A stretch of DNA of 64,000 nucleotides, from NCBI GenBank assembly GCA_030248295.1, contig JASANH010001018.1, positions 558,001 through 622,000 of the forward strand. The letters are read 5' to 3'. The stretch is from Mesodorylaimus sp. YZB2_4 (lineage: Eukaryota; Nematoda; Enoplea; Dorylaimida; Dorylaimidae). The notes beneath the pieces were generated by a model. That model was not told where the DNA came from and searched no databases. It was given only the letters and a program-made list of their open reading frames with translations. Numbering within the stretch: the first letter of the stretch is position 1; each line of letters opens with the position of its first letter. Made by a program: the position numbers and the translations under genes. This document shows, piece after piece, positions 1,204-48,760 of the stretch.

Positions 1204-4200
1204 TTAAAATATCATGCGCTTTACTCGGCGATACAAACTTCTTGCTAAAGATCGAGCCTAAAAGAGGACAAATAATGAACTGACTGCCAGCTCTTTTCCT
1301 GAAAGACACTTACCTTTTGGTTGGAGAAGGCGTGATATATCTGAATAAAAATACCAAGTAAAACATTTATGCCAAATACAACTGTAAATAAGGATATCTT
1401 CTGGTGATAGAGTGCCGTCCACGACATGAACCAGGAGGCGAATTGTGTGCCAAACACGAAAATCAATCCAGCGTGGGCGAGTCTACAACAAAAATTGGCA
1501 AGATGAACATAGTGTCTTTGGTCTTTGTTCTGTCTGACCTGCATGACGTGATAATAAAAGACCGCTGGCGCGTCAGACCGTATCCAGTAGCTTCGAGCAA
1601 GATAACTGTCGGCCAGGCGATGATCGCTATGGGAAGAAACGTTGCCAGCATGACAATGTCGCCCACATTGATCCAACATCTGTGACAAAGATAACTTTTG
1701 GCACTAGTAGACTAGTCGATGAAGCGTGTACGCACGAAAAGTCAGACATAAGCCTGTTGTATGACGTCGCTCCAGTAACGGTGACAATGATTGCAGGCAG
1801 GCCTAAAACTACAAATCATTTTCAGTATTTGCGTCATTCCAGAGTATGCTAGCCATGCTCACCCCAAGAGAGTCCTAACGCTGTTTTCAATTCAATCAGT
1901 GAATTTTGACCAACGACCACATCAGTCAGGACTGCGTAGGCGTGAAGCGCCTCCATGGCTTGCAGCATGAAATTCACACTAAAGAAATACTGAAGGCCCA
2001 GAGCTGCTAGTTTGCACACGTCCTGAAGGCAATGCAGCGATGTGGAATCAACCAGTGGGAAGAAAGGCGTGGCCTCACAAGGCTGATCCGAGAGTCGTCC
2101 CGACTTGCTAAAGTCAGTAGGATCAGATGCGATAAGAACAGGCTTATGTCTTGGTTTGCATGGATGACTTGAAGGTAATAGGTGTGCCTGGCGAAAAGAA
2201 TGTTGCATGTGTGCTTCTGGAAGACTCCTGCAGGCTGTACATCCCTACCTCAGACAAACAAAAATTGCAATCGATAATCCAGTTCCGATCAGGATCCATG
2301 TGCATCCAATATTCATCATTGCAGTGGCGATCGTTTGTTGCGTGTGGGGGCGTTCGGTCATCGGATTCTGGAATAGCAGAATTCTGCACAAATGATACAG
2401 CAGTGTAATTTCTGTAGGTATGATGTAAAGAGTTTGAGTTTAGCTGTGAGCAGTTCTCTGTCTATACCGCGTGCATGCAGTAAGGAAGAGGGACCTCCAC
2501 TATAAGGTCCTCTGCCCCCGCTAAAGTGCAGAAAAGTAGCCGAAGTGCAGAAAATCTCAACCCCTACTGTGCTCAAAAAAGGGACAATGGGTAGCATACA
2601 CATTCTGGTAATTCACAGTCGGCGGACTCGGTTTCAGTGACACAATTTTGCTCAGATATGTTGGCTGGTTGACGTCTCCGTTGTCGAATCACATCAGATC
2701 CGCACGTTGAAGCGCATGGAGTGTACGGCCCCCATTCATCGAATTGGCAGGACGCTAAAAGTTAGTGTTTGATGCGGGGGCAAATAAGGACACGGGTCTA
2801 CAAGCAGCCATGTACCTTGATCACCAAATGTATCACTTGTTGATTGCGTGCCATCAGAAGATAGTACTGGCCTTGACAGTGGCATTGAGTTGCCCCTGCT
2901 CGCAGTGTTGCTGAAAACCCCAATGGTACTACCTGTAGGGTTACTGGAGGATATTACATTGGAGATCGGTGCTTGAGTGGAAGCTGGTGCAGGTGGTTAG
3001 TGAGAATTTAGCTTAGATATCATGCCTAACGTTGTAGTGGCCGCGTAGAAACTATTTTGTTGCTTGCTGGCTGTGACGCTAGGGACTGACACGCTATTTC
3101 CTAAATCTGTGACTTGGGAACTAACTGCTGGGACAGGAGTGACTGACTGAGTTGTGTTGTAAGAGGCTGCACGGTTTTGATTTTCGCTGGGGGTGTTTGT
3201 AGAAATGGGAGCTTTTGATGGGCTAGTTTTTGCCTCCGGCGTACTGGACCTAGTATCTTGACCAGATAATGTGGGAATCCTGGAAGAAGACATCGCAGAG
3301 TCAGCCGGTGTCATAGCAGAAGCCTTCTTGTCATTGCTTTTGCGTGGTGTTGTCCTTGCCGGATCAGCAACTGCAAGAGTTGAGGGATCGGTTATTTCTG
3401 TTGACACCGTTGGGGCACTTGATGAGGACATAGGTGGGTCCTGTGCGCGCGTGACTGCTGTAGTTTTAGGCGTCAGTATCGGATACAGGGTCGTTTTTGA
3501 AGCTGTCACTGGGACAGGAAGATCTGTGGCGGAAGGTGAATTACGCGGTTTTGATGATGGAGATTCTGAAACCCTTTTTATGGCCCCTGTGACTGCAACT
3601 GTGCTCTGTGTTTGAGGAGTGTGGATACTAGATTGATTGATGGACGCGGAAAATGTGACAGCAAGCGTCTCGTTAGCTGGTGACAACTGCGCTTCAATTG
3701 TAGGCCCAGGACGTGGCTGACTGTCTGACAAAGGTGATGCTAATTCAAGAGTACGCTTGCTGGAATTCGTTGAATTCGAAAATAACTTTTTCTGTTCATA
3801 ATTCTGTGAAGTAGTGAGTGCGAGGACGGCGTTTGAGCTAATTGCTTCGACACCCGTCGATGTCGAAATTTCCTGCTTTCCAGCTCTTTCAGTTGTGACT
3901 CTGCTCAAATCTGAAAATGTTGAAGGGACACGCACAGTAGTTCGTGAAGAACCTATTAAGGGGCCAGCTAGCGTGCCTGCCAGTTTGGTGCTGATGGATG
4001 ACTGAAACTGTTGTGGTGAAGGTTTTGTTTGTCCTGAAACGTTACTGCTTGGTGGTAATTCTTGAACTGGAGCAGTTTTCTCGGCAGTTTTCCTTGGCGC
4101 AGTCCAGCCGGGAACGTCCATGGAAGGAGTGTTAATATGAATTGCGGTTCTTCCAGTATTTTCGTCAATCATTGTGCCGACACCAGTTGAGACAGTGAGG

Positions 4201-7200: not shown

Positions 7201-8822
7201 GCAGTACTCTGCATTGCTTCCTTGATTTGGTTGGCCGCTGTTTCCGTCGCCGTATCCTCTGACGGTATCCCCCAAGACAGTGTAGTAGTAGGTAGCAACG
7301 CTGACACTTCTGAGCTAGCAAATACCGATAACGAACTTGCGGAAATAGTGGTTGTAAAAGTGGGGCTCATGGGAGGAGTTTGTGCTGGAGTGTTTGTAGC
7401 GGAAGGAGTGAGAACAGAGGTTGGAGCTGTATTGGGTGATACCAATGTCGCCGCGGCAGTGCTTGCGGCGATCAGTGGCGAGGTTGGGATGGTGGTGGAA
7501 GCAGGGCTTGTAGAATCTGTTGTGGTACCAGGCAATAGCTGCGTTAAAGCGATCGAAATCGTAGATGTAGCAGCTGCTGCTGCAGTTTCGCCTGATGATA
7601 TCTGAGGTGAGAAGAACGTCGTGTCTGAGACAGGGATAGAGGTGATTGGACTTGTTGCTGTACCAGATGAGGCATCCGTTGAGGCAACTGTATTCCAGAT
7701 ATTGGCTGCGATTGTGGTGGCGTTGGTCGATGAGGATTCTGTGGTACTAGAAGGCAGCTGTGTCGAGTCGGGTGTAGTAGAGGATGTAGTTGCGCCTTCT
7801 ATGTAAGAACTGGAGCTGCTGAAAATTGTTATTGAGCTAGATTGCGCTTGGGGTGTGACCATTGTAGTGGCGGGTGTAGTCGAAGTTGCGGTCGGTGGAA
7901 CCATGCTGGAACTAGTTCTGGTTGACCTGCTCGTGGTTGTAGTTGCGGATGTGGTAGTGTACTCAGCCCCCAATGTGATGTTGCACGAACCATCAGATGT
8001 CGAGCATGTGGTGCCTGCTGGAGATGGACCTGGACACGTGGCTGCTTCGTCAGTACAGCCTAAAGCATGGGCAGAGATTGTGCATATGTAAATTGAGGGC
8101 GTAAAGTTTACGTTCTGGCTTTGCATAAATTATGACTTGGCCCCTAAGACTACTAGATACTTACCAAATTCACAGATGACACCACGCTGCACTGAACACC
8201 GTTGAATGTAAAGCTTTATGGTGATTGTTTTGCCTTTGATCTCGAAATACGCAGATAAACAATATGGCGCGAGCGTACAGTTGGCAAGCAATTCGACTGG
8301 GTTTCTGGAAATTTGCGATCCCACAGTGCTTGCATCATTCATCCAGCAGTAGTCGGTTAGAAGGCAGCCTTTCGTAGAAGCTTTGGCTCCCAACCACACG
8401 AATTCTGGTACTTTCAGTAAACCACCATTAATGTTGCCATTAGGCACTGATTTCTTATATGCCAAATTCGCCAAATTGACCATAACTTCCTTCCACATGT
8501 CATCATTCTGAAACGTGGCAGTCCTGCCATACGCCACGGTAGAATTGAACCAGTCAGCCGCCAGTTTTGTGCACAAGTTGGCCTTGGCTGTCCAACTTTC
8601 GTATACGTCCGCGATGAGTATGTAGCATTTGTTGTTGTGATGGAAGGAAGGCATGTTCGGCCTTCTAAAATCGGAGCAAATCCGGGATATATTACCTGGA
8701 ATGCAATCCGATTTTATCGAGGAATGCAAGGGATAGGCAGCGAACTTACACGATTCTGATACCATTATCACTGCGCCCAGTGCTACCAAACTGAGGAGAT
8801 GCCTTGGTCCAGTAAGAAACAT
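1204..8822 (-). CDS. CTLD-mucin-TSP1-7TM adhesion-receptor-like protein B
   Basis: Eleven exons: 8822-8750 (signal peptide MFLTGPRHLLSLVALGAV), 8695-8165 (one CTLD with CYIL, YGRTATF, VWLGA, DYCWM, PYCLS and terminal CEFG), 8059-2816 (Ser/Thr-rich mucin, ~1,740 residues), 2754-2600 (TSP1: CQFDEWGPYTPCASTCG then spaced Cys), 2367-2249 (TM1), 2187-2079 (TM2), 2022-1863 (TM3), 1802-1736 (TM4), 1679-1539 (TM5), 1482-1314 (TM6-7), 1257-1204 (basic tail). The coding sum is 6,822 nt. TM3 (VCKLAALGLQYFF...), WINVGD before TM5 and FGINVLLGIFIQIYHAF in TM7 fit class B2 receptors. No GPS cleavage motif precedes TM1. An in-frame TAA at 2997-2999 interrupts the mucin; it is either a nonsense change or lies in a 69-nt intron (3052-2984). 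Probably a cell-surface receptor; ligand unknown. Confidence 0.82.
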
Positions 8823-10060: not shown

Positions 10061-10077
10061 ATCAGCAAACATTTTTG

Positions 10078-10198
10078 CGCCTCGAGGGTGAAAAGACACA
10101 TTGCACAAGAAATGACTTACTTGACCGAGAGTCGAACGCTCGCTGATAAGGGCGCATCGGGAGTGTAAGGCAAAAGCCTAACCCACTGCCCGGCTGGT
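10078..10198 (-). repeat. tRNA-Glu-like SINE, copy 3
   Basis: On the minus strand this reads as the SINE family seen at 26787: an A-box-like region followed by GTGGGTTAGGC, a B-box GTTCGACTC, and the diagnostic 3' part TGTGTC.TTTCACCCTCGAG. Divergent from copy 1, so an old insertion. Confidence 0.7.
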
Positions 10199-10211
10199 CA
10201 CCAGTCAAACC

Positions 10212-10335
10212 CTGCAAGCGGCCGCTGTGGAGCAGCGGTTCGGCATTCGTCTCTCTGTATTGCTCGGGAGCGAGTGGCTGCACTTGTCCCGAGTTCGATC
10301 CTCGGTGATGGAGGACGGTTTGCGAACCACAAACC
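10212..10335 (+). repeat. tRNA-derived SINE, second family
   Basis: A stretch with an A-box-like TGTGGAGCAGCGG and, about 60 nt later, a B-box GAGTTCGATCCTC. It is not a foldable tRNA and its tail differs from the family at 26787, so I read it as a separate tRNA-derived repeat. Confidence 0.45.
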
Positions 10336-10752
10336 CTCATTGACCTTGCACGCCAGGCCGTGGGTGACTCACCCGGTACCCTAGAGGTGCTCCTAGTGGA
10401 GAGACGGACGCTTAACGAGTAGACAGTCTCGGCTGTCCAACACTGACGAGGTTCAAAGCCCACCCGCCATCATCCGAGGAAGTCGGTGTCCTGTCCAGGA
10501 TGCCCCCGCGTGGAGGTGCTCTAAGTGGAGACAAGCAGAGGGAAGCTGCTGTGTGTGCTGGTCCCCGCATAGCCTTGCTTATAAGGTTTTACTGCTGGCC
10601 GGCTAGTGGCAAAAACGGGGTTCGGCCCACAAAAATTTTAAAAAAATTGCAGCATGCCTCGCTGAGTGATATCAGCCGAAGTCCATTCATTCATTCTATG
10701 GCGACCGCGACTCCTAAAAAATTCAGACAAGCCACGCAGCATCATTCAGGTT

Positions 10753-11300: not shown

Positions 11301-11709
11301 GTCAGAATAGCGAAATTGAGGACATTTATCGGAAACAAGTGCAAATTTTGCTGAACTTTTTTAAAATTCTATTACCTGTTAAAAAATGACCCAATTTATC
11401 GTTAAAAATCTACGATTTTCCTGTATCAACGCGGGAAACTTTTGATGCTCAGGTATACTAACGATAGACGTGTAAGGACATTTTTTCGGTCGGCTTGTAA
11501 CTCATTAGAATGGTCCAAAAACAGTTCGGCCTGTGCGTTTCGTGTTAATTTCACGTCGCGGGTTTCTGCAAAAAGGTTTCAGCAATTTGGGATTCAATCG
11601 TAAAGTTTTGTTTTTGATCACCTTCGTCAATTTTTGTGAGCTATTTTTCACTCGTAATTGATTTGATTTGGTTTCGCAATTATTTCCAGGACTCCGGAGA
11701 CTTGATACC

Positions 11710-14700
11710 ATGAGCAACATCAAGACTTATCTGATGGTCGCCGAAAAACCAAAAGCGGCACGTGCAATCGCACATGCTCTGTCCAATGGTGCCTATAAGA
11801 CTGTTTCTCTGGCGTCCAGAGAAAGTCCGCCGAAAAAGTCCTCGAAGTTAAAAGAAATAATAATACCAGCTGTTCACGAATTTTATTTAAGATCTGAATG
11901 GCGAGGAATAAAAGGACGTTTCAAGGTAACGTCGACGATGGGTCACCTTTCTGAATGGGATTTCGAAAAGTTTTTTCGCGATCGAGAAACTACAGGCGGC
12001 AATGGCGAGCTTTTCGATGCCGATGCGAGAAAAATGCTAAAATATCAGGGGAAACGTATCGCTGATCTTTTACGATCACATGCAGATGGCTGCGCTGGTC
12101 TTATTTTATGGCTGGATTGTGACAAAGCTGGCGAAAGTATTTGCCTCGAAGTCGTGGACGCGATCAAGTGGGAACTCAGCAACGAAAATATTTTTCGTGC
12201 CCGTTTTTTTGGTTTAACGGCAAAAGACATTAGGAACGTAAGTACACGAATAATCTGCTTTTCATGAATCCTAACGTGTTGGCCGATCCAACACTCCTGA
12301 CCCGACTCGTAATGCATGATTTTCCCTTTGAAAATTCGAGATGCCATCAAAGAATTCTTGTGCTATCGCATAACGTAAGTGATATGATGTGATCGATAGG
12401 AAAACCTAATTGATCATATTTCATTTCTTGGGCAAGCGTTAGTTACGTATTAAACCTGACCGAGCTGACCCGCAGAGTGGGTCTGGAAGGTAGATAGTAA
12501 TTTCGGAGCCAAAATCGGGAATAATTGTGGAGGTTGCATTTCGAGGTTCCAAATTTTTGAATTATCTTTCCTGAGAATGTTAACATTCTGGCGAATCGAA
12601 TTTTAACCGAACCGATCAGATTTTGCAAAATCGTTGACCAAGGAAGGGCAATCATGCTGTAAACCAGTAAATAAGTTGGCATTTGCTTATTAGTGCAGCG
12701 ACATGTTGGAAATCAGGTGACATTGGTTTCGCAGTAGTTTACTGTGAGAGTGAAAATACTCAGGAAAAAAATCCAATTTTTGACCGGAAAACATTAAAAA
12801 TTCGGGAAATCGTTTTCCGCGCCTTGTCTGAATCCTGTAACAAGGTGGTCTGATTTTGTCGAAATATGTTCCTTCCAGGCTTCGCTCGAGAAAATCAACG
12901 TTGCCGATGCGCTTTCCATCGATGCCTTACAAGAAATTGATCTCCGAATCGGCTGTTCAGGCACTCGATTTATGACTCAAAATTCCCGCGATGACATGTC
13001 TTTACTTCATGAAATGGCCATCGATCTGTACAAGAAAGCCAACGAGGAGGCGAATAAACCCGGTCAGAAGCTGGAACTTCCAACGATATCGTATGGTCCG
13101 TGTCAGTCCCCGGCCCTCGGTTTCGTCGTACGTCGCTATAAAGATTATCTGGCGGCCACGCCAGTGAAGACGCGGGTTATTGTCGGAAAACGGACTGATG
13201 GCCGTAACATTACGTTTCGGTGCGCCGCTAATTCGGTCATGGATATTGCCAAGCATCGTGGAGCCAAAGTTTCGATCGCCGTCACGATGCGGAATGGCCT
13301 GCTTTCGCCCCCGCCCGCATTAAACAGCCGCGAAGCAATGAGAAAGGCGTCGACGTGTCTGAAAATGCTGCCAGGCAAATGTATGACGCGCTTGGAAGAA
13401 CTCTACGTTAACAGGAAGATCAGTTATCCGCGCACAGACGCCAAGAATTATCCGAATAGCTACTTGGAGTCTACAGTTTGGGAGTCAGTAAGCAAACTAC
13501 GACCGTTCCATCCGAAAATAGGCGCGTATATTGATCAATTATTATCAAGCAAATGTTTTGTCCCAACGAATGATTGTGGTACAAGGGTCGTCCATCCGCC
13601 TATTATGCCGTTGGAAGTCGTTCATCGACATGATGAAGTGGCGAAAGTGCAAATGGAATATGAGCAAGCGAAAATGGGCGTGGAAAAAGCGGAGTCAGAA
13701 CTGTTGGAGGCGAAATCGAAATCCAGTGGGCCAGTCTTGGAAGAAGCGAGAAAGACGTTGGTGAAGGCAAAAGAGAAATTAAGTGGTGCGATAAAGAAAT
13801 TAGAAAACGCTGTGGCAGAAGTGGAACGATACGAGTTATATGAAAAAATTGTGGAATCGTTTTTGGCGTCGGTAAGTTCCATATTGGTTTTATTACAATT
13901 GCCAAGAGATTTTGCAGGGTCGAGCCCAGCGGGCGCGTATTGGCAAGCATCATCCGAAACCTAGCCTCTGGTCCGGGGGTGGGGTGATTTGAAATTTGGG
14001 TGCTTGAAGGGGAGCAGAGAGCGAAAGAACCAAGTTTTTTTGTGAACATTGCGTCATAAACTTTTTAGCTTGACAAGATTCATAAAAGGCGCGTAAAATG
14101 ATACTCCCAAAGTTTTGCAAGGTATTGTGTGCCTTGCTCAACCTGAATTTTCAGTCCATCGTGAGGGTGAAGTGTAAAAATCTCGCTTTTTCATTGGTTC
14201 AAAATGATAGTAGTTTTCTAGCATAACAGCTGGAAATCGAAACTAAACAAAGCAAGGTTCATGGAAATTCGATTTTGTTTAGTCGCGCGGTTATAGCTGA
14301 TTGAATGTAAGGTGGTTAGAAATTCGGTCTAAACAACTTGAAATGGAATGAAACTACATGTTTTAAAGAGAAATTTCTGCCAACTCGAAGAATAAGTATC
14401 CTTTTTTGCTGACCAATCATTATCTGGAGTCAAAAGTAATTGTGATCCAATCAGTCTGGTATGTGGGGCCTTGCGATTGTGCTGCATGCAATTGCGTGTG
14501 CGCGTTTGGGGGCCGCTATATACTGTGCCTGCATTACACAAAGAAGGCCTCGCATAGGTCATCCCCATTTTATAGCAGCACAAGCTCCAGCCTGGCGCTG
14601 GAGATCGTTTCAGAGTAGGATGAAGTTCTATTTTTCTGGCATAGTGTCTTGGGCTTATTGTTAGCTCGCTTCTGCAATGGAGGATATTTGACTTACGATT

Positions 14701-16865: not shown

Positions 16866-16938
16866 TGGAGCTGCGGGGTATCGATCCCCGTACCTCTCGC
16901 ATGCTAAGCGAGCGCTCTACCATGTGAGCTACAGCCCC
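16866..16938 (-). tRNA. tRNA-Ala (anticodon AGC)
   Basis: 73 nt on the minus strand. The acceptor stem GGGGCTG pairs with CAGCTCC (one G-U), discriminator A. The anticodon loop reads TTAGCAT (AGC), and the T-arm is GGGGATCGATACCCC. Box A (TAGCTCACATGG) and box B (GATCGATACC) are intact and no intron is seen, so it should be functional. It lies 3' of the topoisomerase gene, convergent with it. Confidence 0.93.
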
Positions 16939-29665: not shown

Positions 29666-30467
29666 CTAGACTCTAGCAGCTAAATAGAGACCTCGCGTTC
29701 CAAGTCGCAAAACCACTGATAGCGCAGCATAAATAAGGAATCGACGCTGCTGTAAATTGAGGGCAGATTTCGTTTTTCTTTGCAGCATACGGAAAGTAGA
29801 GAGCCGTCTCGATTTGGCAAAGCATCGCATTATTATAAACAAGTAGGTATGTGAGACCGAGTACAGCAGTGACCAAGACCACGAGCGAGTTCGTGTAATC
29901 CTCGAGATACGAGTACTGAAAGTGTGTTTCGTATTCTGAACACAGTCCAGTGAAGTCTGGGTCGCGTTTGGCAACGAAATAAGCAGAGCTCGAGGCGCAA
30001 CCCACGGATATGAGAAAGGCCAGTGCACTCATGATAATGAACCAGGATGGGTGACTAGTCGCACCGGAGTGTCTCCATGGCCATCCAGTCGTTATACGAT
30101 GGGTGGCCTCGATCAAAAGGAACATGGTTTGCCAAGAGGACATTGTGAACCCGATGTGAAATGTGGCCAGTATCAGTGAACATGCTACTGGTCGAATGGC
30201 AAAGCAGAATGATGATTGGACAAGGCGAAGCGCACTCAAGGTGAACAAACCCCATGAATAACAACTGTCAGATGCTGCTTGTCCTCCCAGCAGAAACCTG
30301 GTCGATCGAGGGTAATCTGGGAACACGCAGTAGACGAAGACGGCGGTGCCCTGCAGGCCAATGTTGCCTAGTAGTAGAGCTAAAAGGCTTGCTATTCCGT
30401 AAGGGCTTAAGAAAAAGGAAGCGGGGCTGCTTCGTGGCAAAGAAAGTGAGGTCAGGCTCGAAGACAT
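29666..30467 (-). pseudogene. Truncated, frameshifted 7TM receptor
   Basis: The start at 30467 opens a frame with helices at PYGIASLLALLLGNIG (TM1), the YSWGLFTLSALRL region and RPVACSLILATF (TM2-3), SWFIIMSALAFLISVG (TM4) and NSLVVLVTAVLGLTYLLVY (TM5). After TM5 the protein-like sequence continues in the next frame (CFAKSRRLSTFRMLQRK, then QQRRFLIYAALSVV), so one base appears gained or lost between about 29810 and 29870. It then stops at 29666 inside TM6, and TM7 is missing. Without a hidden exon this cannot be a complete receptor. It resembles orphan chemoreceptor-type GPCRs only in general topology; I do not name a family. Same strand as, and just upstream of, the kinase relic. Confidence 0.65.
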
Positions 30468-30889
30468 GAATAGATGTTACAGGAGAGTGCGTGGCTGGTA
30501 GAGGAAACATGGGGGGTAAGGGAAAATATGACTGCAAATGGCGGCTCGTTTATATTAGCGGCGAAGAGCATGCAGATTAACAACAGCATTCATCGAGCAA
30601 GACGGTTTATCGCTGATAATAGGCCATATATCCATCATGCTTATGGTTTATGGACATTCGCTTTCGCGGACTAACGATCCGTCAGGTGCGCCCAGGACTC
30701 TCTTCCCGGCTAAGCTAACAGCTTTAATAAAAGCGGCGTGGCTTTTTTTACGTGCGTTGTTCCACAAATGAAATTGCAATTATGATTCCTTTTTAAAAAC
30801 CATTAAAGCACAATTTCGATTTGCCATCATTGCGTTCACAATTTATCTTAGCATTATTTATCGTAACCTATTTATACTTATTTATCTTA
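30468..30889. other. Short intergenic spacer
   Basis: About 420 bases between the broken 7TM receptor and the lectin relic; nothing recognised. Confidence 0.4.
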
Positions 30890-31769
30890 AACATCCGACG
30901 AAGTTGTGCTCGATGGGGGGTGACTCGGCATTGCAGGACCGTCTTCTGACAGAAATGTTGAAATTGCCAGTGTCATTGGTGCAGCTTGTTCCGAAGTTGC
31001 AGCTACAACTAAACTTGAGGTCGACAAAGTGCTGCCTGTGTTTAGTAACGCTGTTGTAGGGACAGAGATGAGTTCGATAAATGCCTCTTCTGTGGTTTTC
31101 AGCGTGCTGTGTAGTTTGTATGAGCCAAGCGTACTTTTAGCCTTCAGATTATCGTTTACCGTATTTCCTCGAAATTCTCCTCCCCCCTCTGATTATTCTC
31201 CCCGTCTATACCCCGATTGAACATGCATTACGTATGCATCTACACCCCGGCGTATGCGCTACGTATGCATTTATACGTGAGTTTTACCGTATTTCCTCGA
31301 AATTCTCCTCGGGGGAGAAATTTTTTCTGGGCTGGAGAAATTGAATGGCTGTGCTGGATCAGTAGCGAGAGAAAAGGGGTTGAAGCGTCGGCTCCACTTT
31401 TCAAGAGTGTCGTGTTAACTGAAATCGCTTCTGAAGAAACCTGAGATCTGGAAGTCGCGAAATCTTCCATCCAGCAAAAATCAGCCAGCTGGCTGCCAGT
31501 ACCACTGATCTTTGCCTGAGCGCCCAGCCAGACTGCGCTGCCAGCAAGGGTGGTGGCATCCAATTTCTGTTTCAGATTTCCAATGAAGTTCAGATAGTCG
31601 GTCGAGTTCTTTAAAACAGCAGGCCGGGAATATCCATACTTGAGGTTAGGGCAATCTTTAGCTGTGTTCTTCCATGTGTCAACTCTGTCCAATCGGATCA
31701 GATAGCAGATATCGTTGTACATGTAGGTGATTGTGTTTTTGTCTCCAGTGCATGCTGTGGTGGCGTTAC
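30890..31769 (-). pseudogene. Broken CTLD-mucin family copy
   Basis: A CTLD exon opens at 31769 after the same CAATAG acceptor as CTLD-2 of gene D and is very close to it (TYMYNDICYLIRLD, LAGSAVWLGA). It carries a 4-base deletion near 31378 where gene D reads GGGGTTTTTCGAAG and this copy GGGGTTGAAG; the frame is lost before the terminal Cys-Glu. Similarity ends near 31340 at an inserted repeat. Beyond the repeat, 31140-30890 again reads as Ser/Thr-rich mucin (HSTLKTTEEAF, PTTALLNTGSTLSTSS). No TSP1 or membrane exon follows. Clearly a dead or dying relative of gene D. Confidence 0.8.
31154..31325. repeat. Interspersed repeat splitting the CTLD relic
   Basis: The word TTTACCGTATTTCCTCGAA plus ATTCTCCTC occurs twice (about 31156-31184 and 31283-31311), flanking a C-rich spacer with a CATTACGTATGCAT palindrome. 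It sits exactly where lectin similarity ends and mucin similarity resumes, so it is probably an inserted element. Confidence 0.6.
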
Positions 31770-37014: not shown

Positions 37015-40000
37015 TCATTCTTTTTTTGGAAAGAAACGTCGGTATCCCTTTACTATTAACGATCTCACCTAAAAAAATTACTCTGTAATTAGATGGAAGC
37101 TGAGTGTTGAAATATTTTTAAAAAGCTGTGGTACACAATGTCTATCATTATGAGTCGTCGAGTATCTCACCTGCTGATTAGCAAGCAAGTGATAGAAGAA
37201 GATAAATGCGCCAAGCGCCGCGTTAATACCAAACACAGTTGTGAAATATGCAATGTGCTGGTAATAAATGGCCAAGAAGGTCAGAAACCATGCTGCAAAC
37301 TGTGCCGAAAATACAAAAGCCAGCCCAGCACGGGCCACCCTAGAACGACGGCTTGTCTGGAGAGATCTTAGGTGAGCTGGAGAGGAGGATACTTACTTGC
37401 ACGAATTAATTATGTCCGATTTGCTGCATTCGTTCCAATTGCCAGTCCCTTCCAGAACAATCATGGTGCCCCAAGCCAGGCAGCATACGGGAGCTGCTGA
37501 CAGCATCAAGACTGGCGTGTTGTCGATGTTGATCCAACACCTAAACCTGATAGATCAGGCCACTGTAAATCCCCGAATGACATAAAGCCCTTACGAGTAG
37601 TCAGACATCAGGCTGTCGAACAAGGCGGCCGCCGTGATGCCGGTGAGGACAGCTGGTAGACCTAATAAAGTGAAATGAAGTTGCGGTGGCATTCAAAAAA
37701 CAGCTCCTTCACTTTACCCCAGCCCAATGCCATTGCAACTTTCAACTTGAGCAACACATTATTTCCCATCACCACATTGGTCAACACGGTGAAAATGTGC
37801 AGTGCCTCCAGGGCTTTGAACGTATAGCAGACGGTGAAGAAGTACTGCAGACCCAGCGCGGCCAATTTGCACACGGTCTGTAAAAAATCAGTGCAGTGCT
37901 AAAACCATCATCTGTCATCATCTGGTGTGCATACGTGGCTGAACTTTGAGTCATCTCTCATCGCAAAAAAGAGAACGAGCAGATGCGCAGCTAGCAAACT
38001 GATGTCTTGGTTGGCGTGTATAACTTGCAGGTAGTAGGTGGATCTGAAAACAAAGTTCGAGTCATGTCAATAATTCCTTGCTCTATCAAACTTTTGACAA
38101 TCCAGCACGGTATCTGGGGCTGCCGTGCCTATCGAGACCAATACCCTATGTGTTCTGTCTGTCTGGCATCTCGCATGCTACGGATGCGCTGTTGTCTAAT
38201 GAGCACATACCTGAAAATGATGAACCCGAGAATGGAGCAGCCAAGACCCACGAGTATCCAAATGCAACCCACATTCATCATCACTTTGGTGGCCACCTGC
38301 TCGATTTCAGTCATTGGGGTCTGCAAAAAGAGCCAGCTCGTAGTTCAGCGCACAGGGCACGTCAAACAGGTCCTTTACGCATGGCGGAAGGCGGCAAGCC
38401 TCCGTGGTCGTCTCCGCCGGGCAGTCGTCAATCGTTGCATTTTGTGTTGGAAGGCGGTTCCGGGTTCTGCTCCTGAGGGCTGAGCCGCAGGTCACGCTGC
38501 AGTGAGACCATGCAGCCCATTCCAACGAGAGGCAGACATCTACAGACAGAATTCGATTGGCCGTCCTCCTCTGCTGTGCATAACGAGGTCATACCTGGAG
38601 TCGTTGTCTCCCCAGCTCGAGGTGCTCGCGATGAAGCATCTGGGCTCTTGGTTGTGCTGAAAACCCTTGGATCCGCTGTTGACAAAGAGAAACTGGGGGA
38701 GGTGGTAATCGCTGTTGCGTTTGTTGTGGGATATTGGCCAGTTGGAGACCACGTGGATGAGCTTCCCACAGAACTCTGTTTGAGTGACGCACTGAAACTA
38801 GAAGCAGCTGAATAGGGAGGTGTTCGAGTTGAAGTTGAGACCAGTGTGCTAAAGATCGTTGAGCTATTTGGTGTTGATAAGAGTGGAGATGTGGCTGACG
38901 AAGGACTTGGATGGGAGCTTGATTTTGTTGAGTGCTCGTTGGTTTCGGGGTAGGGCGTAGTAAATCTGGTCTTAGTGCTTTGTGACGGGCTTCTTTCAGT
39001 AATTGCATAGCCTTTCGTAGTGCCGTGTTGGCCCTGTGTAGTATCAGCCCCAGGTGTTGGTGGCCGCCTTCGATCAACGTTTGCCCCAGTGTCGTCAATC
39101 GGACTCGTCTCAAGGTACGGAGAGTCTGACGAAGGGTGCAGCTTCGTTGTCGAAATTTCATTGAAGTAATCACTAAATATTGCCATGGTTTTAACAGCTT
39201 TTTCTGTTGGTGGCAAATCTTCGACTGTGCTGCTTGTTTCTTTTGGAAGCGGGACCTTGGTGACGGATTGTGGACCAGTTGACTTTTCTCGCTTCAAGAC
39301 TGGACCATCCATTTCGTCCACAAATACGGTCGTTGTTTGTGGTGGAACAATAACGCTTTCCGCTTTTTCTGCCTCCAAAGCATTGCCTACAGCCTCATCT
39401 TGACTTTCAAAGGCAATCGTTGTTTTACGGTCTGAGATACCCAAACTAGTAGTTGCACCCCTAGATGATGACTGAAGCGGTGATGTTTCAGGTGGGCTGG
39501 CGCTGGTGCTACGTATCTCGCCAATGAAAGTGGTGGATTTTGTGCGCTTGCCTACTACTGTACGTGTGGCTGGGTATTTAGGATTGGGTGGCGGCTGCTC
39601 ACTTGCAGAAGCTGCCCTCTCGTCCGACAACTCTGGCAGGGTTAGAGCAATAGTCGGGTTGTCAGTAAATGATTCAGTTGTTCGTTTTTTGAAGACTTTG
39701 TGATGCTTGAGAGTGGATGTCTCCTCTGAAGTTGTGGTGGTAAGGGACTTAGTGCTAGGTGCGGCCGTAGTTCTGATCGCGGTCGCGGGAAAGATGGTAG
39801 TGGGCACGAAGGCGACAGGCGTAACGGCTACCACCGTAGTCGGCGTGGTGGATTGTTGCTCAATAGGCGATGTTTCGGTGGTTTGAGTGGCGGAGACTGT
39901 GGTTGATGATAAAGCAGCGAGTGTGGTTTGGGCCTTTGCAGAGCTTGTGGACATTGTGCTCGAGGAAAGTGAAGTTGCAGGGCCGTCTGCAGGCAGCACT

Positions 40001-43000
40001 GTTAAAGTTTCCGTTGTTGTTGGGACAGTGTCTTCCAAGGTTGTGCCTTCGAGGGAATGTGTGGTTGACCAAGTGCTGCTACTTGTTGGCGGCTGGGATA
40101 TCGTGGTGGATGGGTCGGCTGTGGTTTCCAATGTGCTGGATCGCTTGGACGACCCTAGGGATGCACTTGTACTTTTGAGATCGTCGCTTGTTTCTGTCGT
40201 AGCCACGGAGGTTGATGGTGTAGACGTGTCGGCAGGCACAGTCGTCCTGGATTCAGTTGTTGTACTGGCATCTCTAGCTGTGGTAGACAAAACTTGGCCG
40301 CTGCCCGCTGATGTCGATGCCTCTGTGGTTACTTCTTTTGAGCTTGTATTTATTTGTGCCACTGTCGATTTCGACTGGCTGGTGCTTGGTCTCGCTGTGG
40401 TTACTGCACTCGGAGCAGTTTCTGTTCCTGTAGAAGTCATGAAATTCGGTGCTGAGGTTTGATATGTAGTAGATGTGGAAGGGGATTCTGTCACAGTGGA
40501 CGTCAGCTCCATTGGCGGGTCGGTGACCAATTCAGTTGATGCTGTTGTTGAGGGTACGATTTCGACAGTTGATGATGGCTCAGTGGTTGTCTCACCCAGA
40601 GATGAAGATTGGAATGTTGACTTAATGGAAGTTGATCCAGCGGAAGTCGCGCTAGTAGCGAAGGTAGACGTTGTTTCAACAAGGGAAGAAGTCGACATCC
40701 ATTCAGTTGACAGGATGAATGTGGAAATACTGCTGGTCGTGTCTGGTGGCGGTGGTGGCGGAGTTCGAATTTTTCTCCCTCCACGTTTCGACGTTGTTGT
40801 TTTTGGAATGAAAGTGTTCATTATGACTGCGGTTAATCCCGTCGTGGCCATGTTCGTTGTACTTGGGGGCACTGCACTTGACGTTGTTGTCAACGCCCCT
40901 GTGTTTGCTGGTTGTGTCGCTGTTGAAGGCTTTGTTGAAGTGGATAGCGTTTCACTTGTCGACGTGGTGGTTGCAGTCGACTTTGTTGTTGTAGTACTCG
41001 GCCGAGACGCTGTTTTTCTACTTCTGGGAACTGAAGTTGAAGACGAAGTGGTTGAAATAGTGGTGGATGGCGCATCGGTCACAGCTCTGGTTGTGGGATT
41101 CTGTGTTGATGGCGATGGAGAGCTGGTGCTAAAAGGAGTTGATGTAAACGCTGCCATCGAAGTTGTAGGTTTTAGGGTTGATGTAGCCGTGCTGGAGGTG
41201 CTTTGAGTCGCGCTTGTTGGGACGTTGGTAGTGGTCGTGGATGAAGTTTTTGCAGCTGACGAAGTAGGCTGACTAGTAGTAGGGCCAACGGATAAAGTCA
41301 TGGTTGAGCTGGAAGAGCTGAGTGTCGACACAGTCGAAGCAGTTGTGGGGGCTTGTTGAGTTGAGGTCGATGCCGTAGTTGGTGTTGATGTTGTCAGGTG
41401 TGCTTTGCTCGTTGAAAGTCTGGTGGGAGAGGATGAAAAGGACAGAGTAGTGAGCCTCGTAGACGTCGTTTGTTTCAGAGATGTTGATGCGCTAGTAAGG
41501 GGAGCCGTCGATTTGGTGTTTGATGGAGTTGGGGTCGAGTCGAAAGTCAGAGAGGAAGAGCTGGTGATCTTAGCAGAAGATGCAGTGCTGGTGGTTGTAC
41601 TAGTTGGAGTGGGTGTTGATGAAGAAGAAGTCGAAGCGTCGCTCGTAGTTGTGCCTGCAGTTGTTGGCAATGGTGATTGTATATCGCATTTGCCGAGTGG
41701 GCACATTGGATTCAGGGTTGAAGAGCCAGGGCATGTTGCATCCCGAGGAAGATTACATCCTAAAAAAATGCCATTTTTTCTTGCTCTTTTGCTAAAACAA
41801 ACACTTTTACTCACCAAATTCGCATATAAAAGAAGGGGAAAACACCGCTTCTGAACAGGACGATGCAATAAAGTACTGCGGATTCTCAAGTTTTGTTGAC
41901 AGGCAGTAGGGCGCGGGGTCTGATAGGGGAGGGTCGATTGAGGTGAATCGATCGTTGATTTGCGAGCCGTACTGTGACTGGCTAGTCATCCAGCAGTATT
42001 CTGAAACGTCCATTCCGTCACTCGCGTTTGAGGTGCGTGCGGCAAGCCATACTGGGCCAGGTCTGTTTGAAGTGATGTACAGCTGCTGCATGATGTCAGT
42101 GTACATTGTGTAGTTGTAGAAGATGGCCATCCGACCGTAGTCCATGGGTGGATTAAAAAATGCTCTAGCAGCATTACTGCAGATGCTGTAGCTGGAATCC
42201 CAAGATGCCCTCGAATCCTCCAAGACGTAGCAGATGTTATTGTAGTAGACTGCTGGAAGTGAAGTTGCTCTGCAAGCCGCTCCAACATCACCTATGATTG
42301 CAATATAGTCAATTGGAGGAGCTTCCCTGGTTACTTCACTTACATTGTGGAGTCTGAGTTGTGGTGGTGGTCTCTTTTAATTCCATTGTTGTTATTTTTG
42401 TGGAGTGCTTCGTTGAGGGGGTACTTGTTGGAGCTGCATTCGTAACTGTCGTGATCATTGTGGAGCTAGTTGCAGTTGTGGCCTCTTTTGATGTTAGAGT
42501 CGCCGCTTTTGTCGAGTACTGCGTCGAGCGGAAGCTGGTTGAGCTCGCATTCGTTGCTGTCGTGGTCGTTGTAGTGCTGGTCGTGGTTGTTTGGGAACAG
42601 GCGTCGCACGTGCCAAATGTGGCGTTGCTCGCGTTCGTGCAGTCCATTGATGCACAGCCTGCAATACCTGTAATAAGACACCCCTCAATCTCGCATGTTA
42701 CTCTTACCGTATTCATAGATCATTGGGAACACTAAAGAGCCGCCGTCATTGCAATCTACGGCGTATAATTCAAATGGGTACGACAAATTCACTGCAAGGC
42801 AAAATGGGGCCTGCGGAGTTGGGTAATCTCCGGCTGCCACATGGTCTATGTTAATAAAATCTGATTTCGACGACACCTTCAATCCGGGTGTTGACGAGCT
42901 GGTCTTCCAGCAGTAATCTGACAGTTGATCTCCCATTCCTCCCGTTGACATGGCACCCAGCCAGGCAAGCTGGTTGGAAAGGCTGGTGCCACCAAGCTTT

Positions 43001-46000
43001 TGAGACAGAGTAGTCATGACGTCCATGAAAAAGGCGTCGTCCTTGAATATCGCTGCGCGGCTGTACCCCCGGGGGAATGGCAGGCTTTTGTTATGAGCAG
43101 TAGTCCAGGTATATCTCCGATTTGTAAAAATGACGTAGCAGACGCTGCCGGAACTGTAGTGGACTGAAGTGGGGGTGTCTATACACGTTTTGTTCACAGT
43201 GCCTAAAAGTTTAGAGGATTTGTAGTGTATATAGCGCCTGCAGTTATTGCATGTCTGCTAGCATATGGGGTGTGGTAAATTCTTGCTTTTACAAATTAGC
43301 CGTTCGCCAATAGTTCTCCGCATACAGAACGACTCATGGGTATGGGCACGCAACTGCGAACATTCATAGAGTCAACATACATAGTTACATCCCCAGATTA
43401 ATTTCGATATATTTATGCTCATGTACAGAACGAACTATCCTCGGCGGAAATACAGCTGTGTTTTAAACTCACAATGCCCAGAACCCATTTTACGACAGAT
43501 GATAATAGTTCAAGAACGCTTGATTTTCGGCCTGAGTTCTAGTGGGATTGTGGAAGGTAAGGTAACAATTTCGCTGCTGCAGCCCATGAGCAAGGTACTC
43601 TGGCTACAACATTTTAAGCTCCCTACCTAGATCGCAATTTAATCTGGAGCGCATGTGCCTGAACATTTTGACAAAAATAATGGACCTTTCAAGCGTGCGC
43701 CAAAAGCTTCGAATTTGAAATTCCTGCTTGGGCTGCTTATAATAATAAAACAAGGATCCAGCAGATCTGTGCGCGATCGTATGCAAAGTTCGGATGACAT
43801 GGCAAAGATCAATTTTCAACTAAAGTTACTGTCGATAAAAGCATGTGGAAAAATTGCCTTTGTATTATTAGAAAACGAATTTTCAAATTCAACTGGCCCT
43901 CGATGATCTCAAATATTTATTTGATCGATAGAACAAACAGATCTGCTCACCAAGTGACATATTGTCATAAGCAGCCAAGCTACCGTTATCGCGGAAATTC
44001 AAATTTTTCCTGACGCTGAAAAGGTCTATTAGTTAATCGCAATGTGTTTAGGAGGATCAGGGATTTTGCCTGATTGCTAAAGTGGATGAATTTAAGCCCC
44101 TTTTCCTTTTTGGGGATGAGGCGGAATTCATGGCCAGGCTGCCTGATCTTCTTGGACCCATATTGATAGGTTTTTGTAACAACACCCACATGCGCTCCAA
44201 ATTAATATAGCGTTGATCCAATCAGCTGCGCAGGGGCTTGCAAAATCCTGCTGTAACGCCATGTACAAGTATAAAGGGCGACTCAGAGTTTTTTTGCCAG
44301 GGGAAAGGGGAGCTTAATTTATGGCGGTGGAGGACCTCAGTCTAAATATCTTATACCGCCTAGGTGCGCCTTCTTAATTAACCTGGAAGGTGCGCCTTCC
44401 ATTAACTCACACTGTGGGTCAGTTATAGGTGTCGATAAAGTGGTAAAAATGGTCGATGAAGACGTTGGCGACGCTGAAGTTGGGATGGAGGTGCTGAAAC
44501 TCGTAGAAGTTGTGCCGGTGCTGGTAGTCGTGGCCGTTGTCGTCAACAATGGTGATTGTATATCGCACTGGCCCAGTGGGCACACTGGATTCAGGGATGA
44601 CGAGCCAGGACATGTTGCATCTTGAGGGATATTGCATCCTAAAAACCTTTTTCCCTTTCTCTCTGACAAAAAAAGTCTCAATTCCACTCACCAAATTCGC
44701 ATATGAAAGAGGGTGAAAACACCAGTGCAGAGCAGGACGATGCAATGAAGTACTGTGGATTCTCAAGTTTTGTTGACAGGCAGTATGGCGCGGGGCCTGA
44801 CACGGGAGGGGCGAGCGAGGTGGATCGATCGTTGACTTGAGAGCCGTACTGTGACTGGCTAGTCATCCAGCAGAATTCGGAAAGGTCAGTTCCATTTCTC
44901 GAGTTCGAAGTACGTGCAGCAAGCCACACTGCGGTGGTTCTGTTCGCTCTGATGTACAGCTGCTGCATAATGTCAGTGTACATTGTGTAGTTGTAGAAGA
45001 CGGCCATTCGACCATAGTCCATGGGTGGATTAAATAATACTGTAGCAGCATTTGTGCAAACGTTGTAGCCGGCATCCCAAGGTGACCGAATTCTAGGTAA
45101 GACATAACAGATGTTGTTGTAGTAGACAGCTGGAAGCGAGATGGCCCTGCAAGCCGCTGCGGCATCACCTAGGAACGAAGTTATGGCAGATTTCGGCATT
45201 GACTCAATCAAAGTACTTCACTCACATTGTGGAGGTCGAGCTGTGATGGCTGTCCCTTTCGAGGCCGCAGTCGTCGCTTTCGTAGAGTATTGCGTTGTGC
45301 GGAGGCTGGTTGAACTCGCATCCGTGGCTAAAAGAAAACTAGCCAGTTTGGGTTTTGAGATCACGGAAAGATGCACGTGTGGTGAAGTTGACAAGTAACA
45401 ACATTCTCCCATGCATTCTTGAATCTGTTGATCCATTTTTAGAGCTGATCTTGTTTTGAGCAATGCTTTTCAGCTCTAGCCCTATCGATCGCATTGCATT
45501 CCAACTGAGCTGCCCAGAAAGTCGCTACGATCTAGTTGCTGGGCGTGCGGCATGAGAGTAGGGCTCTTAGCAATGAGATGCATGTTACATTTACATCATT
45601 CCTGGGAACATTTTGAGCGCCACATACTTACATTGGTAAGGAATTTCAGTCGTTGTTGAAAAAGATAAAGCGACTGAACTTGTAGCAGTGATAACGTTTG
45701 TTGTGGATGTGCTTGTGGTGCCCGAAGTCGTTGTACTTGCTGTCGTCGTCGTGCTTGAAGTCGTTGTAGTGGTTGATGTGGTCGTAGTCACAGGAATCCC
45801 AAACGGACATGTGGTCCCATCACATGCACCCTTAGGTGAAGCGGGTGGGCAATCGATGGATGTGTATCCGCAACCTACAACCAAGAAATGACAGACATTG
45901 TTCGTTTCGCAGTCGCTATCTCGAGCAGCATGAGCTTACCCAGTTCACAGACCATAGGAAACTTCCTGGTGGGGGTTGCGTCATCGAATACGACAGAGTA

Positions 46001-48760
46001 AAAGTTTAATGGCTGCGCTGGATCAGTAGCGAGAGAAAAGGGGTTTTTCGAAGCGTCGGCTCCAGCTTTCAAGAGAGTCATGTTGACTGATATCGAGTCG
46101 TTGGTAACCTTGGAACCAGGAGTTGCCGAATCAGCCATCCAGCAATAATCAGACAGCTGACCGCCGCTGCCACTGGTATTCGTCCGAGCGCCCAGCCAGA
46201 CTGCGCTGCCAGCAAGGATGGTTGCATCCAATTTCTGTTTCAGAATTCCAATGACGTTCAGGTAGTCTGTCGTGTTCTTGAAAACAGCAGGTCGGGAATA
46301 TCCATACTGGAGGAGCGGGCAGTCTTTAGCTGTGTTCTTCCATGTGTCTACTTTGTCAAGCCGGATCAGATAGCAGATATCGTTGTACATGTAGGTGACT
46401 TTGTTCGAGTCTCCAATGCATGCCGTGGTGGCGTTACCTATTGAGCATATTGAACGAAAATGGCAATCAATTAATAAAATAAGACTTTGAGGAAGATCGA
46501 TTTTATAACTCATGCAAGAGGCGTAAACCATCAGCAGAGATCAGCAAAATCGGTCCATTATTTACTCCTCGCACGCACTGCCGATACTCTTCCTACAAAC
46601 ACTCTAAATCACCGCTACCTTATTTTCATTATCGGCGCCCGACCTTTCCCGAGGTTTGTGACCTGCTTGCCCCTTCTTACTTACATTCTCTCGCACACCG
46701 TCCCGTGTGGCCTCTCGCAAAACATTACCAAAGGGTGCCTAAACTTGTTACCATACTCGAATGACTTTTCTTTTAAATGAAGCAGTTGCACTGCATTAGG
46801 GCTTTGAAAGACGGAGCATATTTGAAGTTCAGGAATAGGCCTAGTGCCAGGGACGATAGCTCGTGCATAGCGCATAGAACTCGTGCCTGTGAGATTCCTT
46901 CAAATGCCGATTAAAAGTGACAAAAATACGTTACGCGGCCACGCGATTTTGAAAAGCCTTGAGCAGGTGCCGGTTACTGTCTCTTTTCCTCGGAAATGTA
47001 CACGCGGCACTATGCGGCAACGTGGCGGACGTGTATATTCCCAAAGAAAACAGGTTATAATGATGAAAATTCGCGGTGAAGTACAGTAGGTTGTAAGCGT
47101 CTCCGCTGGTGTATTAGCAAAGCAGCAACCAAGCTATTTATAGCTTACGAACCCACTACTTACACTATTGGATGCTATCATTGGTTTTATAGCTTTCATC
47201 TGTAACAACTCTTTTTGGGAATCATGCATGTACAGGCTCTGAAAAAGGTGCACCCGCCACAATCGATTCAACGCTAAATAGTGCAAAGCCACCACCACCC
47301 AAATATTTACGCCTTATTAAAAAGTGTGTTCAAATGAGGAAGCGGCAACTGAAGTCACCATTCAGCAAATTCGTGCTGGCGAAATTCGGGAATTAAAACA
47401 TCGATCCATTAATTTTTGCATCGGTCTGCTTGGAGGAAGGTTTCAAAGATTGCAAATACTGTACGATTTATTGTAATTTTTGCTAGTAACTGACTGCCTC
47501 TGAAAATCGGGTCTGGCTCCTTATAGTGTCATGTCATGCCATGTCATACTTTACCCATAGCCAAGCACCATATAACGCACTCGAGGGCTAAGGAACACAT
47601 ATTTGACAATTGCTTATTTTTCCAGGCGGGAGTCCCTGCTCTGTAAATGCGCGCCCAGCGTGAGAGGCAAATGCCTTAACCGCTAGGCCAAAGACCCGGG
47701 TAGCCACAGACCCCGAAAAACACAGGCAAAAAGGCAGCAGTGGGCTGCGCATGATAACCTTTTTGCTATTAAAAAAGTAAAGAAATACCACGAGTCCTTA
47801 CAAGGATCAAAGGCGCAGACGCCTGTGAGTGGGCACTTTGCCTGAGTTGTCGAAACATTGAGTCCAGTTGGCGGCACAAGTGTGGTGGTTTGCGCAGGAA
47901 TTGAACATTTTGCAGGTGGAGAGTTAAAGTTGCAGCCTAAAAAGCAACAGCTACACTTTGCCAATTTTCTGGATTATATGTTATCCCTCACCGAACTCGC
48001 AGAGCATGAAGTATTTATCGCTGCAAGGCTTACCCACAAACACAGTGGGTTTTTTTATGTCATCGACTGCGAGGCAGGATGGCGTCGAGTTTGTGGCCGG
48101 CGTCTTCACGTTGACACTCGTTTGCTGAGCTGACACTTGGGAGCCCATTGCGCATGCCGTGCTCATCCAACAATAGTCAGATATTACCCCGCCACCAGAA
48201 ACAGAAGCGGCGCCTAACCAGATTGGTTTGTCGATGTTAATTTTGGCTGCGAGGCCATTCGTGACCGCTTTGCCGCCAGATAGTATCAATATTTTACTGA
48301 TGACCTCCATGTAGTCGCTGAAGTTAGTGAAAATTGCTGCTCGGCCGTAGTTCATCTCTGGATCGAATGCATCGGCAAGGTCGTTGCATTTCTTATAGCT
48401 ATCTTGCCATGTAGTCGGTGCATTCAACAATCCGTAACATTTACCATTATAACGGAAAGTGACCATTTTGGCGTCACCAAGGTCCAACTCACCGGTGCAT
48501 GATCTGATGTTACCTGCAAAAACCAGAAGTGCACATACACGATCATCATCAGGAAGACCAAGAATACAGCACATACACTCGTTGGGGTCTTCGCTGTTTC
48601 CACCCGTTCCTGGACACGAGCTGCTACCCTGGGGAGGATCGCAAGCCGACAGACGAAGCATTGACAATAAGCATGCTCCTCCGAAGTATCTTATTATGCT
48701 CCTTCGACAAACCATGGCGAGAATTACAAGAAAAGCAAATAATAAAATATGAAGACGCAT
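37015..48760 (-). CDS. Five-CTLD mucin-TSP1-7TM adhesion-receptor-like protein D
   Basis: Twenty exons, 7,815 nt, 2,604 residues: signal 48760-48577; CTLD-1 48513-47992, linker 47936-47802; CTLD-2 46437-45940, linkers 45874-45632 and 45327-45226; CTLD-3 45168-44692, linker 44638-44411; CTLD-4 43202-42708, linker 42658-42344; CTLD-5 42291-41815; mucin 41759-38595; TSP1 38539-38379; membrane exons 38320-38211, 38043-37935, 37877-37718, 37661-37595, 37540-37397, 37339-37171; tail 37068-37015. Every lectin exon starts and ends in phase 1. Each lectin shows C-terminal CEFG or equivalent, WLGA or WLAA, and (except CTLD-4, DYCWK) a YCWM/FCWM motif. CTLD-3 and CTLD-5 are nearly identical with similar linkers. 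TSP1 reads EWAAWSHCSVTCG. TM3 is VCKLAALGLQYFF and TM7 FGINAALGAFIFFYH. No GPS motif. The long introns at 47801-46438 and 44410-43203 leave a small chance that CTLD-1 belongs to a separate transcript. Confidence 0.85.
47582..47702 (-). repeat. tRNA-Glu-like SINE, copy 4 (near intron of D)
   Basis: On the minus strand it reads GGCCTAGCGGTTAAGGCATTTG then CCTCTCACGC, with the 3' region ending GGAACA...CTAAG/CTCGAG-like sequence aligned to copy 1. The B-box is degraded. It lies in the long intron after linker 1 of gene D, in the sense orientation. Confidence 0.65.

Follow-up and report, generated by a model that had tools for sequence, protein, structure and literature searches.

Predicted class-B seven-helix receptors with lectin-like heads, mucin-like stalks and a TSP1 domain: a candidate gene family in the nematode Mesodorylaimus

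Background

Do C-type lectin-like domains (CTLDs), a very long Ser/Thr-rich stalk, a TSP1 domain and a seven-transmembrane (7TM) receptor occur together in one nematode polypeptide? The question is raised by a 64,000-nucleotide stretch of the Mesodorylaimus sp. YZB2_4 genome (contig JASANH010001018.1, here C39, positions 558001-622000; hereafter the window), in which an earlier note had pointed out a cluster of genes, B, C and D, of apparently this architecture. The analysis described here suggests that B, C and D probably belong to a nematode gene family that has expanded and encodes class-B (7tm_2) receptors with seven helices, a lectin-like head, a mucin-like stalk and a TSP1 domain.

As stated in a review (PMC7308585), nematodes have expanded C-type lectin receptors and G-protein-coupled receptors (GPCRs) and no NLRs or PGRPs, and almost nothing is known about signalling by invertebrate CTLD proteins. 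In C. elegans, two further papers report that 83 small C-type lectins are up-regulated upon pathogen exposure (PMC3534327) and list only three adhesion GPCRs (PMC13197933). If one chain carries both CTLDs and a transducer of the G-protein type, CTLD signalling would become directly testable, and a many-copy family would contrast with the three receptors listed for C. elegans. It would also raise the question of how an adhesion-type 7TM domain works without a GAIN domain.

Gene organization

The minus strand of the window was read in three frames and exons were joined at GT-AG sites, using genomic sequence only. Three complete gene models were obtained, B (1204-8822, 12 exons), C (18831-26286, 11 exons) and D (37015-48760, 20 exons), which encode 2,244, 2,197 and 2,587 amino acids, respectively, and confirm the positions given in the earlier note. 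Positions are given in window coordinates unless a contig is named; all exons described are on the minus strand, and every intron is of the GT-AG type.

In gene B, exon 1 (8750-8822) contains the start codon and a predicted signal peptide with a hydrophobic peak at residues 3-21. It is followed by a CTLD exon in phase 1-1 (8165-8695), a stalk exon of 1,676 residues (3031-8059; Ser 19%, Thr 17%), a proposed second stalk exon of 43 residues (2816-2943), a TSP1 exon (2600-2754) and the exons for TM1, TM2, TM3, TM4, TM5, TM6-7 and the C-terminus (1204-2367). The second stalk exon depends on an 87-nt intron: an in-frame TAA lies near 2997, and the model bypasses it only via this assumed GT-AG intron. 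It is also possible that the TAA is a genuine stop or that the assembly is wrong here. Gene C has the same order, with a signal peptide exon (26184-26286), a CTLD exon (25620-26129), a stalk exon of 1,665 residues with short tandem repeats (20558-25552; Ser 15%, Thr 21%), a TSP1 exon (20350-20501) and the seven-helix part with the C-terminal exon (18831-20286).

B and C have one CTLD exon each. In D there are five, and the exons that link them are short, rich in Thr and contain Cys. Downstream of the signal peptide exon (48628-48760) these are CTLD1 (47992-48513), linker L1 with Cys and Thr (47802-47936), CTLD2 (45940-46437), linkers L2a (45632-45874) and L2b (45226-45327), CTLD3 (44692-45168), linker L3 (44411-44638), CTLD4 (42708-43202), linker L4 (42344-42658) and CTLD5 (41815-42291). 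The linkers were placed by the gene model, the CTLDs by the gene model and profile mapping. A stalk exon of 1,055 residues (38595-41759; Ser 20%, Thr 25%), a TSP1 exon (38379-38539) and the seven-helix part with the C-terminal exon (37015-38320) complete the gene. A hydrophobic, signal-like segment was found by a hydropathy scan at the N-terminus of all three proteins, and the last exons encode 17-25 residues.

The lengths of the TM2, TM3, TM4 and TM6-7 exons (109, 160, 67 and 169 nt) are equal in all three copies, as the earlier note had found; those of the TM5 exon (141, 141 and 144 nt in B, C and D) and of the TM1 exon (119, 110 and 110 nt) differ slightly. The ectodomain introns up to TSP1 are all in phase 1, the one exception being the additional intron assumed within the B stalk. 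Intron lengths are mostly 49-114 nt, the others being 232 nt in B, 329 nt in C and 167, 304, 1,208 and 1,364 nt in D. With 55-105 nt between CTLD and stalk and 55-61 nt between stalk and TSP1 there is scant space for one gene to terminate and a second promoter to follow. The short introns and their phases argue for ectodomain and helices being encoded by one transcript.

Family members elsewhere in the genome

The 145-Mb assembly (1,067 contigs) has 133 matches to Col_cuticle_N, a cuticle-collagen profile specific to nematodes, and contains no exact copy of the SL1 spliced leader. It was searched with part of the D helices and with the C CTLD, which gave 140 exon matches and 67 matches, respectively. 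From 120 of the 140 helix matches 68 seven-helix loci were assembled on 35 contigs, a count that includes distant relatives (e.g. a GPS-bearing locus on C58) and intronless copies. Sixty-three of the 67 CTLD matches were on contigs with a 7TM locus, and in all 63 the nearest 7TM was on the same strand. A same-strand 7TM was present downstream within 20 kb for 58 of the 67, against about 0.3 expected under random placing, an expectation that is crude; the CTLDs of one array are not independent of each other.

Modules were then mapped in the 126 kb left of the window and in stretches of contigs C83, C63, C62, C206 and C78, using profiles derived from the B, C and D sequences; for these three genes themselves the matches are true by construction. 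C39 was found to contain ten loci (G1 to G5, F, A, B, C and D) and one lone CTLD; three further loci, on C62, C63 and C83, were covered from CTLD to helices. Upstream of the helices there was a TSP1 match in 12 of these 13 loci (in G4 with an E value of only 1.1e-3), a CTLD in 12, and in all 13 an open frame of 1,056-1,710 codons with 40-52% Ser, Thr and Pro. The proposed order of CTLD, Ser/Thr stalk of 1,000-1,700 residues, TSP1 and seven helices recurs in the mapped loci. By position, seven loci have one CTLD, G2 has two, the C83 locus (C83a) three, F and D five each and G3 seven. Some long frames span CTLD and stalk (C62, 2,014 codons) or stalk and TSP1 (C63, C83). A reading of these as natural fusions was dropped, because short introns free of stops could explain them equally well.

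The partial copy A of the earlier note proved to be a further locus lying mostly outside the window (C39 550740-558262): only the end of its CTLD exon is inside (1-262), and its stalk, TSP1 and 7TM parts are to the left (C39 550740-557720). A G-rich run in its stalk (C39:553250-553400) is likely an assembly fault. The relic proposed at 31 kb is a lone CTLD exon (31372-31764), related to D CTLD2 and G2 CTLD1 and without a 7TM of its own beside it.

On C206 and C78 Pfam-recognised Lectin_C domains precede a 7tm_2-like part encoded by the same strand, and no TSP1 was found in the Pfam TSP1 results. Between lectin and helices C206 has a 1,736-codon Ser/Thr/Pro-rich frame and C78 a short Thr stretch; the C206 helix exons are 31-37% identical to the query. 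Canonical Lectin_C followed by 7TM on the same strand, a second lineage, was seen at C206:16041-26929 and C441:11732-57111. A dense one-strand cluster with dozens of Pfam Lectin_C matches occupies C21:899552-951506, and no 7tm_2 match was found on that contig. Single-exon 7TM matches occurred at C885:767-1360, C130:767-1360 and C253:732-1325, three similar positions near contig starts, and also on C731, C159, C688, C343 and C24; their frames of about 480-840 residues are 24-28% identical to the D helices, and they may represent a dispersed or subtelomeric intronless class-B family.

The TSP1 domain and the seven helices

The membrane exons of all three copies matched Pfam 7tm_2 well above the cut-off (47.7-63.7 bits against 20.6; E 1.5e-12 in B, 4.3e-14 in C and 2e-17 in D) and no other superfamily; in D a blind match was also obtained at 37716-38027. 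When a three-copy profile was compared with PDB sequences, ADGRL3 was the top match (E 4.3e-15), followed by ADGRL2, ADGRD1 and ADGRE5, and these matches span nearly the whole seven-helix region. The class-B2-like assignment of the earlier note is borne out by these results. The Pfam TSP_1 cut-off of 21.6 bits was reached in all three copies (35.7 in D, 24.3 in C and 21.6, exactly the cut-off, in B), in agreement with one TSP1 per copy, and the closest PDB sequence to this part was thrombospondin-1. Identity to D in the TSP1-7TM part was 47% for C and 51% for B. A comparison of the TSP1-7TM part of C with a large predicted-protein set gave 6,110 word-sharing candidates, none of them at E 0.001.

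In B, C and D the last cysteine of TSP1 is followed by an invariant P-M-(T/S), and helix 1 begins less than about 20 residues further on. This linker, directly after the TSP1 exon and before helix 1, was present in all 13 loci with both exons. The O-fucosylation motif C-x-x-(S/T)-C-G occurs in 11 of 13 TSP1 domains, the two others being those of C and G5.

B, C and D are predicted to have a long modular ectodomain before the helices, as in adhesion GPCRs, made up of CTLD, stalk and TSP1. A search of the whole genome with a profile of GPS, the hallmark of adhesion GPCRs, in which only the best candidates were scored and which a strongly altered GPS could escape, gave eight matches, none of them on C39, C83, C62 or C63. 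For six of the eight an ordinary 7tm_2 match lies no more than about 1.3 kb away (C58, C72, C130, C249, C2 and C16). No GAIN domain was detected in Pfam scans of the main B, C and D stalk exons, no genome-wide search with a GAIN profile having been made. No hormone-receptor (HRM) domain, a feature of secretin-type (class B1) receptors, was found when Pfam was run on all seven CTLD exons, the main stalk exons, L2a, L3, L4 and the TSP1-7TM parts, a scan which left out exon 1, L1, L2b and the second stalk exon of B. Membership among canonical adhesion GPCRs was rejected because there was no GPS match at the B, C and D loci. Taking into account that C83, C62 and C63 have no GPS match either and that the gap between TSP1 and helix 1 is short, we call these proteins adhesion-like class-B receptors without GAIN/GPS.

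Lectin-like heads and stalk

A single AlphaFold model, made for the C CTLD at moderate confidence, shows a C-type lectin fold; for B, whose sequence was in the alignment, the fold is predicted via this model. A PDB profile search with the CTLD returned five weak matches, all of them C-type lectins, covering 26-30 positions at E values of 0.14-1.5. In most of 30 aligned CTLD sequences, which are related to each other, the cysteines of the disulfide pairs C1-C4 and C2-C3 are present, and in the ungapped sequences among them the two pairs are lost jointly, never one alone. Structure prediction, cysteine pattern and the weak PDB matches support the assignment of the heads to the C-type lectin fold.

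The stalk exons of B (1,676 and 43 residues), C (1,665) and D (1,055) contain 36-45% Ser plus Thr and few cysteines, and no domain was found by a Pfam scan of the main stalk exons. Such long regions rich in Ser, Thr and Pro are characteristic of mucins, hence the stalks appear mucin-like and are predicted to be O-glycosylated. Dense O-glycans stiffen the chain to about 0.2 nm per residue, and the stalks could reach 0.2 to 0.4 micrometres. The F and D stalk frames, taken from stop to stop with slight flanking sequence included, are 85% identical over 1,135 residues (dN 0.082, dS 0.130). They differ by ten indels. Six of these have lengths divisible by three, and the remaining four jointly restore the frame.

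Selection and turnover

Ratios of nonsynonymous to synonymous substitution (dN/dS) were determined by the Nei-Gojobori method in 19 comparisons, six of which had saturated dS and gave no ratio. All 13 estimable values were below 1. For the F-D pair dN/dS was 0.09 in the helices, 0.07 in TSP1 and 0.16 to 0.44 in the five CTLDs; the corresponding values for A-B, with dS near 2, were 0.06, 0.15 and 0.24. Helix values of 0.12 for G4-G5 and 0.15 for C-D complete the four pairs with estimable dS, which range from 0.06 to 0.15. These ratios indicate constraint on the family at the protein level. The CTLDs change faster than the helices; G4 and G5 are 92% identical in the helices and 40% in the CTLD. 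The repetition of the module order across loci, together with this constraint, is more than chance would produce, and chance open frames were rejected as an explanation.

In a tree of the helices D grouped with F (support 82/81), and in CTLD trees CTLD2 and CTLD3 of D grouped with those of G2 (98/89 and 99/93). The helices of G2 were too incomplete for the former tree, and the grouping of its CTLDs may reflect no more than a history in common with D. A better sign of exchange or conversion between the arrays is the uneven dS within the F-D pair, from 0.06 in CTLD5 to 1.27 in CTLD1.

Discussion

The likeness to latrophilins (ADGRL; LAT-1 and LAT-2 in C. elegans) lies in the helices, for which ADGRL3 was the closest PDB match, and in the presence of a lectin-like domain on a 7TM receptor. 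The latrophilin lectin is of the RBL type; latrophilins have GAIN/GPS and are not known to have a giant stalk or a TSP1, whereas the family described here has CTLDs, a mucin-like stalk, TSP1 and no GPS match. A TSP1 before a class-B 7TM domain is shared with the ADGRB (BAI) receptors, which differ in having several TSP1 domains, a hormone-receptor domain and GAIN, and are not known to have a CTLD or a long stalk. A long Ser/Thr-rich stalk is found in transmembrane mucins, and CTLD heads in stalked C-type lectin receptors; both are single-pass membrane anchors and lack the seven helices. In amphioxus a Lectin C-type domain is joined to an adhesion-type 7TM domain; in the available part of the paper (PMC2246102) many of the adhesion receptors have a GPS and a mucin stalk is not described. 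The C206 and C78 loci likewise combine CTLDs with a 7tm_2-like part further downstream on one strand; unlike B, C and D they have a Pfam-recognised Lectin_C and no TSP1 match. In a literature search whose scope left out most subscription papers and bioRxiv preprints, no description was found of CTLD, mucin stalk, TSP1 and 7TM together, and the main text of a nematode lectin paper (PMC5297725) mentions no GPCR, 7tm or thrombospondin.

Several observations weigh against a family of lectin-headed receptors. Of the seven CTLD exons in the three genes, none matched Pfam Lectin_C even at an E value of 10, so that the CTLD assignment of the earlier note failed this test; the sole Pfam result was a chance match to another family (E 0.25). 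When the CTLD profile was compared by hhalign with two canonical CTLDs encoded in this assembly, only 19 columns were aligned, with a probability of 0.7%. Because the sequence evidence for the CTLD is weak, the argument is carried by the structure model; the existence of the C206/C78 lineage, with canonical Lectin_C and 7TM, makes the lectin reading firmer. The sugar-binding motifs EPN, QPD and WND were absent from all 30 CTLDs, and this, together with the lack of a Lectin_C match, makes sugar binding doubtful. CTLDs as a class have proteins, lipids or sugars as ligands. A simple hydropathy scan gave 6, 7 and 8 peaks in the membrane parts of B, C and D, therefore the seven helices rest on the 7tm_2 match and not on hydropathy. 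In the profile mapping G3 had no TSP1 match and G4 only the marginal one, and G1 had no CTLD match, either in the mapping, for which the upstream DNA was cut at 432001, or in the genome search. Not every locus is complete: in G2 (C39:471453-478709) TM1 is followed, 7 kb on, by only part of TM6-7, and helices 2 to 5 are not in place. A 1,419-codon frame on the opposite strand, possibly an insertion, lies between these two parts. The B-C value of dN/dS for TSP1 was as high as 0.44, and no CTLD pair had a value above 1, thus diversifying selection was not demonstrated. A microbial role is suggested by analogy, and G-protein coupling is putative.

The gene models were read from genomic DNA, which leaves room for the view that each locus consists of two adjacent genes, one for a secreted or anchored lectin-mucin and one for a separate TSP1-7TM receptor, fused by gene assembly. 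Such errors are real: as described in a paper on lancelet gene models (PMC4967905), their error rate is high and expressed sequence tags exposed one predicted lectin fusion as false. However, the 55-61 nt between stalk and TSP1 are short for a 3' end, a promoter and a 5' end, the joins are consistently in phase 1, CTLD and 7TM are linked in 58 of 67 cases, and a hydropathy scan of B, C and D found no hydrophobic segment, and hence no new signal peptide, inside the TSP1 exon. We consider two genes per locus quite improbable. That the copies are mostly decaying is hardly credible: the in-frame TAA in B, the disturbed G-rich stretch in A, the interruption of G2 and the lone CTLD would fit decay, but it is rejected by dN/dS below 1 in all 13 estimable comparisons and disfavoured by the long open frames in all 13 mapped loci.

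If the architecture is accepted, the function may still be a different one. The proteins could be mucins fixed in the membrane from which a glycocalyx or cuticle coat is formed, with the helices serving as anchor or tension sensor and no ligand switch; the stalks, at 1,055 to 1,719 residues, are the dominant part of the proteins, their last exons are short, the CTLDs have no sugar motif and the missing GPS match leaves no sign of a tethered agonist. We hold such a scaffold rather unlikely, since the helices, with dN/dS of 0.06-0.15 in four pairs, are under tighter constraint than an anchor needs, and the heads change faster. Faster-changing CTLDs above conserved helices would also fit reproductive proteins, and in C. 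elegans LAT-1 has roles in both sperm guidance and ovulation (PMC13197933). Nothing specific speaks against receptors for gametes or for self/non-self recognition within the worm; a gamete system would be expected to have fewer copies, and we regard this role as still less probable than a scaffold.

In the receptor family that we favour, the CTLD head would bind an external ligand on a microbial surface, on the surface of another worm or on the worm's own surface coat, and the O-glycosylated stalk would keep the head some hundreds of nanometres off the membrane. Binding or pull might travel via TSP1 and the short PM(S/T) linker directly to helix 1 and from there to a G protein; unlike GAIN/GPS receptors, these proteins would use neither cleavage nor a tethered agonist. 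By analogy, faster-changing heads above a conserved transducer would suit a recognition repertoire, most likely directed toward microbes. A more far-reaching proposal, which we put forward tentatively as possible rather than probable, is that the family forms a tandem pattern-recognition repertoire of GAIN-less class-B GPCRs, in which diverging and recombining CTLD arrays are combined with a conserved TSP1-PM(S/T)-7TM unit converting binding or pull into G-protein signalling. If true, it would be a GPCR counterpart of the Toll or NLR repertoires and would imply a new activation mode for adhesion-type receptors.

Other features of the window

Between B and C there is a topoisomerase gene on the plus strand (11662-13964; Toprim, Topoisom_bac) and a tRNA-Ala (AGC) gene on the minus strand (16866-16938). 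A 267-residue open frame with several hydrophobic stretches (29673-30476) looks 7TM-like by eye and has no Pfam match. Beyond D lie an ionotropic glutamate-receptor-like gene on the minus strand (52863-54035; Lig_chan-Glu_bd, E 4.2e-8), a tRNA-Asp (GTC) gene on the plus strand (55889-55959), a class-A-like 7TM open frame (56231-57274; 7tm_1, E 5e-5, below the curated cut-off) and the start of a flavin-containing monooxygenase gene (63410-63919; E 1.3e-42).
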